DNA of 64,000 bases from Casimicrobium huifangae (GTDB lineage: Bacteria > Pseudomonadota > Gammaproteobacteria > Burkholderiales > Casimicrobiaceae), in the NCBI RefSeq assembly GCF_009746125.1, contig NZ_CP041352.1, forward strand, positions 3,580,436-3,644,435, in the 5' to 3' direction. A program made the translations under genes and the position numbers. Under the pieces are notes generated by a model. That model worked only from the letters and a program-made list of their open reading frames with translations, did not search any database and was not told the DNA's origin. How positions within the stretch are numbered: position 1 is the first letter of the stretch; each line of letters begins with the position of its first letter. Shown here piece after piece: positions 1,858 to 59,793 of this stretch.

Positions 1858-1979
1858 ATCAGCTTTTTCACTGAATTCCCATTCAATGAGGGCTGCATGC
1901 GTGTTTACTCACGAAGTCGACTTCAGTGCTTATTACGCCGCTAGCCCTTATCCAATAAGGATTTCAGCGAATAGCTGAT
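1858..1979. repeat. Intergenic palindromic repeat, copy A
   Basis: This 122-bp imperfect palindrome has its dyad centre between 1918 and 1919. The outer ends are ATCAGCT (1858-1864) and AGCTGAT (1973-1979). The inner arms carry GAGGGCT and AGCCCTTAT, and the exact core is GAAGTCGACTTC (1913-1924). The two 61-bp halves align with only a one-base shift. It fills the gap between the convergent stops of gor and hutF. The same layout recurs at five other places in the window. Confidence 0.85.
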
Positions 1980-15834: not shown

Positions 15835-15942
15835 CCCGTCGCCCCCGGTCCCGCTGCATGGCGGCGCGACTGCCACCCATCACCATTGTAAGAACGCGGC
15901 AAGGCCAGGATGTGCGCCAGCATCACGGACGCTGAAGCACTT

Positions 15943-16062
15943 ACATCTTTCTATCGAAATCCTTATTCAATAAGGGCTAGACGCCTTAAAACACCGTAAG
16001 TCGACTTGACATTATTTGCACCGCCGAGCCCATTACGGACGCCATTTTTCTGAAAAGTTGAT
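15943..16062. repeat. Intergenic palindromic repeat, copy B
   Basis: This copy has the core AAGTCGACTT at 15998-16007, a left arm GAAATCCTTATTCAATAAGG followed by GCT, a right arm with AGCCCATTACGG and CCATTTTTC, and an outer AGTTGAT at 16056-16062. The left arm is almost the same as the right arm of copy A read in reverse. It lies downstream of the beta-propeller gene and upstream of the FHA-EAL gene. The rest of 15835-16111 holds no gene that I can see. Confidence 0.8.
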
Positions 16063-16111
16063 GGTTGGGAGTGCGCTTGTCGGGCACCGCGCGACCCATC
16101 GCGCTGCGACA

Positions 16112-26192: not shown

Positions 26193-26314
26193 TACAGCTT
26201 TGCGTGGAAACCCGCACCCAAGCTGGGCTCAGAAGGTCATTTGGCGACTTTCCGGTATTCGGCAGAATGAACGCCTAAGCCCTCATGGAATGGGCTTTTC
26301 AAGGAAAAGCTGAT
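26193..26314. repeat. Intergenic palindromic repeat, copy C
   Basis: A degenerate copy. Outer ends are TACAGCTTT (from 26193) and AAAGCTGAT (to 26314), inner arms are AGCTGGGCT and TAAGCCCTCATGGAATGG, and the core is decayed to TTTGGCGACTTTCC near 26241-26254. It lies 52 bp past the stop of the TPR gene. A 79-codon open frame crosses it but looks accidental. Confidence 0.65.
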
Positions 26315-26365
26315 GGGCGGCGCGGCGTTGTCGGCTTCTGGAAAATGCGGCAGCCTGGCGGTTCC

Positions 26366-36571: not shown

Positions 36572-36694
36572 CAACAGCCTGATGGCAAGAGCTGCAATTT
36601 AATTGGGCTAAGCGGCTGGTTTGCCAAAAAGTCGACTTTTTGACAAATAAGGCGCCAAGCCCTGTTCAAAAGTCATTCCGCGCAAAAGTTGCAT
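36572..36694. repeat. Intergenic palindromic repeat, copy D
   Basis: This copy has the longest perfect core, AAAAAGTCGACTTTTT (36626-36641). Arms are TTTAATTGGGCTAAG (left) and CCAAGCCCTGTTC (right), with AAAAGTTGCAT as the right end. It is the only copy placed between two gene starts: the binding-protein gene begins at 36456 and the DUF3592 gene at 36730. The arms are less regular than in copy A. Confidence 0.78.
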
Positions 36695-38892: not shown

Positions 38893-38995
38893 GGCGAATC
38901 ACCGGATGACATGGAGCGTCACATCATAGTCGGCCATTGCTGTCACCGCACTAGCAAGCGGTGTGCAGGTGAAACAGTATCTAGCGATCATCATC

Positions 38996-39082
38996 GTAGC
39001 CTCGATGCAATGAAGTGGAATCGAGGGTGAATGTGGCGCGTTGAACAAATGCCTCGATTCCGCTGCGCTTCATCGCGGCTAC
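38996..39082. repeat. REP-like palindromic element
   Basis: GTAGCCTCGATG with GTGGAATCGAGG (38996-39026) and CCTCGATTCCGC with CATCGCGGCTAC (39052-39082) are inverted copies of a 31-bp unit with a short spacer. It resembles the widespread GTAGCC(C/T)CGATGAAGC type repeats of proteobacterial genomes. It begins 13 bp past the SelO stop and may act as its terminator. Confidence 0.75.
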
Positions 39083-39094
39083 GACCGACACACG

Positions 39095-48899: not shown

Positions 48900-48923
48900 C
48901 TACCCGCCGCCTGAGGTTCGGGC

Positions 48924-49049
48924 GAAGTCAACTTATTACGCTATCGACCTCCGTGTGCGGCGCCGGGCCCCATTTCACGGAAAGTCGACTTTTCAACCAA
49001 ATGCGTTCGAAGCCCAGGCGAAACGGGCTTCTAGCCAAAAAGTTGAATC
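48924..49049. repeat. Intergenic palindromic repeat, copy E
   Basis: The core is AAAGTCGACTTT (48981-48992). Outer ends are AAGTCAACTTATTACG (from 48925) and AAAAAGTTGAATC (to 49049), with inner GCCGGGCCCC and CGAAGCCCAGGCG. It fills the space between the convergent GGDEF and lolA stops, and its right end touches the lolA stop codon at 49049-49051. Confidence 0.8.
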
Positions 49050-59644: not shown

Positions 59645-59660
59645 CCGGCGCGGACGCTTT

Positions 59661-59793
59661 ACAGCTTTTTGCTGAGGTCGCCATTGCAATTGGGCTCAGA
59701 CCGTGTTTTTGCCCAAAGTCGACCCAATCGGCCAAAAAAGATCGGCAAAACCGGGGGCACATCCCTTGAACACAGCGATTTTGCGCGGCAGCT
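59661..59793. repeat. Intergenic palindromic repeat, copy F
   Basis: The core is half-decayed, CAAAGTCGACCCAATC near 59714-59729. The left arm is ACAGCTTTTTGCTG then CAATTGGGCTCAG, close to copy D. The right arm ends in GCGCGGCAGCT, which runs into the stop of the LysR gene at 59792. It fills the space between the convergent secreted-protein and LysR genes. Confidence 0.65.

Follow-up and report, generated by a model that had tools for sequence, protein, structure and literature searches.

The 64-kb window, by which we mean the whole 64,000-nucleotide stretch of the Casimicrobium huifangae chromosome analysed here, carries six copies of a long palindromic intergenic element. Copy A, a full element at positions 1857 to 1980 (73.9 bits and E = 3.8e-22 with profile R1, in whose training set it is included), lies in a convergent gap, flanked by genes that end at 1832 on the forward strand and at 1987 on the reverse strand, as predicted by a purpose-written gene caller. 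Its dyad falls between positions 1918 and 1919, inside an exact match to the core AAGTCGACTT at 1914 to 1923 that is centred on the dyad TCGA. At 25-29 bp from the dyad stand a GGGCT block on the left (1890 to 1894), which was demanded by the exact-skeleton pattern described below, and an AGCCC block on the right (1943 to 1947), which was read from the sequence. The left end, AGCTTTT (1861 to 1867, 52-58 bp from the dyad), belongs to an outer block that is conserved though the pattern did not demand it, and the right end, AGCT (1973 to 1976, 55-58 bp from the dyad), was again read from the sequence.

Copies B (15942 to 16063; 62.7 bits) and D (36572 to 36693; 61.5 bits) are also full elements, located in a tandem and a divergent gap, respectively, and they too belong to the profile training set. 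The other three copies were outside that set. Copy C (26193 to 26315; 46.3 bits; tandem gap) has good arms and a damaged core. Copy E (48921 to 49047; convergent gap) has a strong right half and core, which give 40.5 bits over 48959 to 49047, and a weak left half, whose end at 48921 to 48946 shows only a chance-level profile match (E = 7.5). Copy F (59660 to 59723; 35.7 bits; convergent gap) consists of the left half and core only. All six places listed in the first-pass annotation were recovered by the sequence-only profile, with best E values per place from 4e-22 to 3e-10, and all are real; those that it placed at 26193, 48924 and 59661, however, are damaged or incomplete. With at most one mismatch, AAGTCGACTT occurs five times in the window compared with 1.0 expected, and four of these occurrences are exact, each at a dyad. 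No Rfam family matched above its gathering cut-off within the window.

Copy number, distribution and anatomy of the element

The six copies are a small fraction of the family. The exact skeleton, GGGCT-N-AAGTCGACTT-N-AGCCC, was found 47 times in the 4,465,898-bp genome of C. huifangae and the reversed pattern not once, which is far from the few chance matches that the first-pass annotation had allowed for in a genome-wide search. Pattern copies 80 bp or less from a locus end were dropped. In a genome-wide profile search, 150 of the 936 first-look candidates were scored, and all 150 (counted per strand) had E values below 2e-14. Elements above 20 bits numbered 36 in a contiguous stretch of 464 kb (window included) and 31 in another of 400 kb. 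Ten of these 67 were members of the training set, and a profile from the same alignment reached at most 5.9 bits on the shuffled and reversed 864 kb. By extrapolation, 67 copies in 864 kb correspond to about 350 in the 4.47-Mb chromosome. Profile matches below 20 bits were dropped, including four of 8-12 bits in G018, another genome of the genus.

Profile searches within the family, in which up to 54 candidates were scored per genome, found the element in 16 of the 17 genomes of the host genus and in none of the 47 other genomes. When 399 genomes were drawn evenly across the order (up to eight candidates scored per genome), five matched, all of the host genus. The exact pattern matched 92 stretches among 84,980 species genomes, a collection that may omit the records of C. 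huifangae itself. All 92 came from six metagenome-assembled genomes, whose titles read Burkholderiales, Betaproteobacteria, Proteobacteria and, once, Deltaproteobacteria. The last of these (L049, JAKQOD010000145.1) carries one exact element, and its label or binning is probably wrong. With the models used, the element is limited to one genus. Within the genus, G014 (2.6 Mb, 97% complete) had no element with either model. G014 and G020 (2.5 Mb) are the smallest genomes of the genus; they have no and few elements, respectively, and neither has a RAYT match.

Conservation among the 47 own copies is position-specific and symmetric around the dyad TCGA. Counted in bp from the dyad, the inner blocks are A/T only at 13-14, AGCCC at 25-29 and A/T-rich at 30-33 and 36-38, and the outer blocks are G-rich at 39-41, T at 44-46, A at 52-54 and (A/G)GCTG-like at 55-59, the ends of the element being CAGCTTTT and AAAAGCTG. 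The core and the GGGCT/AGCCC blocks were demanded by the pattern that selected these copies, and the remaining blocks were not.

The arms had been described in the first-pass annotation as pairing partly, as if structure were kept, but no position pair clearly covaries. None of 74 mirrored positions exceeded z 2.4 for base-pairing over the shuffled expectation, and only 7 of 8,633 position pairs exceeded z 3, with none above z 3.5. The pairing excess summed along the mirror diagonal (z 1.9) was the second highest of the tested diagonals, which is within chance for their number. RNAalifold predicted no pairs on 95 copies (45 of 140 copies were left out of this alignment, A1). A conserved stem is therefore unlikely, and the mirrored-position, all-pairs and RNAalifold tests together disfavour an RNA or cruciform structure. 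The same annotation had named missing arm covariation as a result that would count against its proposal; what this result removes is the conserved structure, not the family. The two halves look independently read, like the DNA site of a symmetric protein.

G009, which has a GC content of 55% and is only distantly related within the genus (121 reciprocal best hits to proteins of the own genome and G018, with a mean identity of 58%), has a dialect of the element. Geometry and TCGA dyad are retained, but the core is approximately TTATCGATAA and CGCCC replaces AGCCC. A model trained iteratively on a 400-kb stretch of G009 found 87 sites in that stretch, 66 intergenic and 21 inside called genes; strong sites on untrained G009 contigs and in the own genome provided an independent check of this model. 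In an alignment of the intergenic G009 sites (A2, from which 23 of the 66 were left out by choice), an inverted repeat lies within each half, near GCCCAATTnAATTGGGC and some 34 bp away from the dyad, which suggests a second, putative dimeric subsite per half.

Gene-gap placement, spacing and shared positions

Genes were called with a purpose-written dicodon caller, which gave coding fractions of 0.89 and 0.91 in the two stretches. All 67 elements are centred in intergenic gaps, and the few that overlap a called gene end do so by at most 18 bp. They occupy 40 tandem, 14 convergent and 13 divergent gaps, compared with 190, 41 and 76, respectively, among all 307 gaps of at least 100 bp, so that there is little bias among gap types apart from some over-representation of convergent gaps (14/67 vs. 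41/307). In the tandem gaps of the own and G018 stretches, 38 of 57 elements lie nearer the end of the upstream gene.

The elements are evenly spaced. The 65 inter-element gaps have a median of 11.1 kb, and against a null of random choice among intergenic gaps, only two were shorter than 4 kb (17 expected; 0 of 5,000 permutations as low), while 46 fell between 6 and 16.5 kb (24 expected). For elements above 30 bits, none of 61 gaps was under 4.4 kb. Even spacing was also found in G009, where 8 of the 65 gaps between the 66 intergenic sites were shorter than 2.5 kb (20 expected; 0 of 3,000 permutations as low), the 21 sites inside called genes being excluded from this test. G018 shows weaker regularity, with 2 of 26 gaps shorter than 4 kb (5.9 expected, p = 0.024) and a p of 0.14 for the overall spread. 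In one metagenome-assembled genome, two rather similar elements (L105, 2849 to 2976 and 3701 to 3828) lie 852 bp apart, an exception to the spacing rule that is probably a local duplication.

Some of the longest gaps without elements were read by eye. In one (contig C1, approximately 3382900 to 3407700), transposase-like gene pairs, alike over the 40 residues shown and in opposite orientation, flank efflux-like genes, and the block is likely acquired. Another contains a low-GC block with glycosyltransferase-like genes. These two gaps may be acquired because of the transposase-like flanks in the one and the low-GC glycosyltransferase-like block in the other; a third among the longest showed no acquired-looking features.

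The positions of the elements are shared between species. A syntenic 359-kb contig of G018 has 229 reciprocal best hits to own proteins, at a mean identity of 87%; of these, 215 fall in the 400-kb own stretch. Among conserved adjacent gene pairs, the element was present in both genomes in 12, only in G018 in one, only in the own genome in two and in neither in 163 (Fisher, 8e-16); when gaps of at least 100 bp were required on both sides, the corresponding counts were 12, 0, 2 and 33 (Fisher, 2e-9). Twelve gaps are thus common and three differ, and of the two counted as only own, one rests on a weak 24-bit match and the other has an 8-bit match in G018, one of the 8-12-bit matches dropped there. 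In loci from five genomes of other species, the own element stood between the same two genes in 13 of 14 cases, a figure to which own sequence picked for carrying elements contributed; the unselected stretches gave seven of eight. The 53 gene pairs comparable between the own genome and G009 included three own elements, all matched by a G009 site, and five more G009 calls were unmatched.

Between orthologous copies, identity was 0.76 in the skeleton and 0.49 elsewhere, which indicates that the skeleton is kept and the rest is nearly saturated with change. The corresponding values for non-orthologous copies were scarcely lower, at 0.72 and 0.45, and fourfold sites agreed at 0.61 in the orthologue comparison. 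Element-free orthologous gaps (n = 57) were 0.73 identical, compared with 0.59 when shuffled, and are better kept than the variable positions of the element. The 1,953 pairs among 63 own copies had a mean identity of 48% and a maximum of 67.5%. The element positions are old.

Comparison with known repeats and alternative explanations

Like REP, BIME and REPIN sequences, the element is intergenic, palindromic and present in hundreds of copies, and a dispersed family of this kind could be a mobile MITE or REPIN whose even spacing was produced by transposition immunity, an explanation that we consider very unlikely. In its favour, four RAYT genes exceed the curated cut-off in the own genome (C1: 2013704, 3283895, 3570623 and 4154831; three of the four were also run through NCBIfam). 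Y1_Tnp is present in 15 of the 17 genus genomes and absent from G014, which has no element, and G020, which has few; owing to this distribution a REPIN/RAYT system was seriously weighed, but the correlation is confounded because these two genomes are also the smallest of the genus. The system was then set aside because the own RAYT flanks lack the element (0 matches in the eight 250-bp flanks of the four genes), the element-rich G016 and G017 have no RAYT above the curated cut-off, and RAYT genes occur in element-free genera; across the 64 family genomes, 47 have a RAYT match at E 0.001 and 25 exceed the curated cut-off. A non-autonomous MITE, one of three options in the first-pass annotation, also fits poorly with gene gaps common to two species and with the absence of near-identical copies, the closest of the 63 own copies being those at 67.5%. 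REP sequences are described as carrying GTAG or CGTC tags (PMC3733652), and REP doublets as randomly distributed in extragenic space (PMC3116915), whereas the conserved columns of the element include no such tag, its arms neither form a conserved hairpin nor clearly covary, and its copies are evenly spaced and shared in position between species. Each own RAYT flank region does contain a different palindrome beginning with GTAG, as seen by eye. One of these, GTAGCCTCGAT, beside the RAYT at 3283895-3284326, is clearly repeated, with 12 copies of a 12-mer in 864 kb; the most frequent 12-mers in the remaining flanks reach 4-6 occurrences, not above the 99.9th percentile of all 12-mers. In the window, an inverted repeat at 38994 to 39084 with arms that are 82% complementary matches GTAGCCTCGAT in its left arm and is likely a canonical REP doublet. 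When GTAG-type REP patterns of four families were pooled over the same stretches, 8 of 24 gaps were under 4 kb, a rough contrast to the element given how short these patterns are. ERIC/IRU sequences are imperfect palindromes of about 127 bp whose copies are alike along their whole length and arise as insertions. The element is similar to them in length, palindromy and intergenic setting but shares only a skeleton among its copies (the 48% mean identity given above) and holds old positions.

A transcriptional boundary, where a bound protein or weak structure would stop readthrough or insulate neighbouring genes, appears improbable. The intergenic location, the position nearer the upstream gene's end in tandem gaps and the excess of convergent gaps are in line with it, but terminators would not be expected to be evenly spaced on a kilobase scale, and both the 13 elements in divergent gaps and the absence of a conserved hairpin disfavour the intrinsic bidirectional terminator that the first-pass annotation had offered as its second option. 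Even spacing, hundreds of copies, lineage dialects and acquired-looking element-free blocks would also suit a self-marking or DNA-uptake sequence, by which evenly placed tags would serve a preference for own DNA and the G009 core would be a dialect. Uptake sequences are evenly spaced in Haemophilus, and known ones are short and non-palindromic, so that a symmetric 120-bp palindrome confined to intergenic gaps in its own genome is unlike them, and we regard this explanation as very improbable. Dialects of uptake sequences have been described (PMC3630211), and one study of such sequences addresses intragenic copies (PMC2346458). A phage origin was rejected: the sole exact pattern match in a viral collection lies on a contig of 40% GC, scores 17 bits by profile and was judged to be a chance match. 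Other chromosome-organising sites such as parS and matS are 13-16 bp long and regionally clustered. The element resembles them, as dispersed protein-bound chromosomal sites, in being dispersed and putatively protein-bound, but it is 120 bp long and found throughout the examined stretches.

A putative architectural site and its candidate reader

Judged from its sequence features, the element is probably a two-fold symmetric, protein-binding and probably DNA-wrapping site of chromosome architecture. This reading is favoured because conservation is symmetric and position-specific without clear covariation, and because all 67 elements are intergenic, evenly spaced, shared in position with G018 and kept in geometry in G009. 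The points weighed against it are the weaker regularity of spacing in G018, the 21 G009 sites inside called genes, the mirror-diagonal z of 1.9, the element-free gaps that are better kept than the variable positions, and gene calls that come from the purpose-written caller. Among the options of the first-pass annotation, a protein-binding site, still putative, fits best, while a MITE, a terminator and a conserved secondary structure fit poorly. Each copy would offer about 120 bp of double-stranded DNA to a two-fold symmetric protein assembly, which would contact fixed points on each side of the TCGA dyad: the core, the A/T step at 13-15 bp, (A/C)GCCC at 25-29 bp, the G-rich step at about 39-42 bp, the T-run at 44-46 bp and AAAAGCTG at about 51-58 bp. 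The assembly would probably wrap or bend the DNA, and hundreds of such sites, at a mean spacing of about 6-13 kb, would split the chromosome into short intervals. Because the sites divide the chromosome and have been kept in place over evolution, their likeliest role would be in chromosome architecture or topology. They may be docking sites either of a dedicated nucleoid protein or of a wrapping topoisomerase, for which DNA gyrase is the leading candidate. The protein reader, the wrapping and the architectural role are what we infer from these patterns in the DNA.

The evidence is suggestive of gyrase as the leading candidate reader. In a specific form of this idea, the elements would be strong DNA gyrase sites, centred on TCGA with a 4-bp staggered cut and with both arms wrapped, and their even spacing would spread twist relief in a genus apparently lacking topoisomerase IV. 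We consider this form possible but rather unlikely. The motif described for Escherichia coli gyrase is 130 bp long and symmetric about a cut with a 4-bp stagger, its arms being phased, and BIME-2 sequences are reported as gyrase sites in that species (PMC6379681); the strong gyrase site (SGS) of phage Mu is described as having two periodic arms, both of which wrap (PMC12393610). The element resembles these in its length of about 120-130 bp, its 4-bp symmetric centre and its phased A/T content: over 1-58 bp of the own element the best period was 9.75 (permutation p = 0.0015; block permutation p = 0.03), and in G009 it was 10.0. Strong gyrase sites are characterised by a 10.75-bp GC periodicity in the arms; phasing in the arms alone peaked at 7.25 rather than 10.5 bp in the own element (17-60 bp) and at 10.5 in G009. 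Among 36,577 Mu positions, the annotated gyrase cut dyad ranked 698th with the full own profile and 346th with the full G009 profile, that is, in the top 1-2% at the exact base. Arm-only profiles were weak, with ranks of 6,669 and 1,104, respectively, at the exact centre. These mixed ranks are no more than suggestive, and they come from one test site and two correlated profiles. A single match to the type IIA topoisomerase A-subunit (PF00521) was found in the own genome (C1: 2479455 to 2480885) and in 13 of the 17 genus genomes, the other four having two partial pieces each, and ParC seems to be absent from the own genome and many family genomes. A single gyrase-type match is nevertheless unspecific, as the element-free G014 and many genomes of other genera also have one. 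Moreover, gyrase is universal whereas the element is limited to a genus, and the near-fixed words and hundreds of evenly spaced intergenic sites of the element differ from the degenerate E. coli motif and from the Mu SGS.

Taking the architectural reading further, the genus may have its entire chromosome marked by several hundred symmetric 120-bp wrapping sites, evenly spaced and conserved in position, which would delimit topological or architectural intervals of about 6-13 kb and whose species dialects would change together with the reader protein; we hold this broader proposal tentatively, with somewhat less than even confidence. None of the tested repeat families fits the element, and among the papers listed in literature searches on the core word and on evenly or regularly spaced intergenic palindromes, no named family appeared. 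To our knowledge, no described bacterial repeat is of this size, symmetric without pairing, evenly spaced and also conserved in position. The size and basis of the micro-domains of bacterial chromosomes are a long-standing question that has usually been answered statistically. Evenly spaced, conserved and symmetric sites would make this question directly testable, since they could be mapped and mutated and could serve as bait. Dialects that differ between relatives would likewise provide a natural experiment on the joint change of a protein and hundreds of fixed sites, and the element illustrates that not every abundant palindrome between genes is a REP, a MITE or a terminator.
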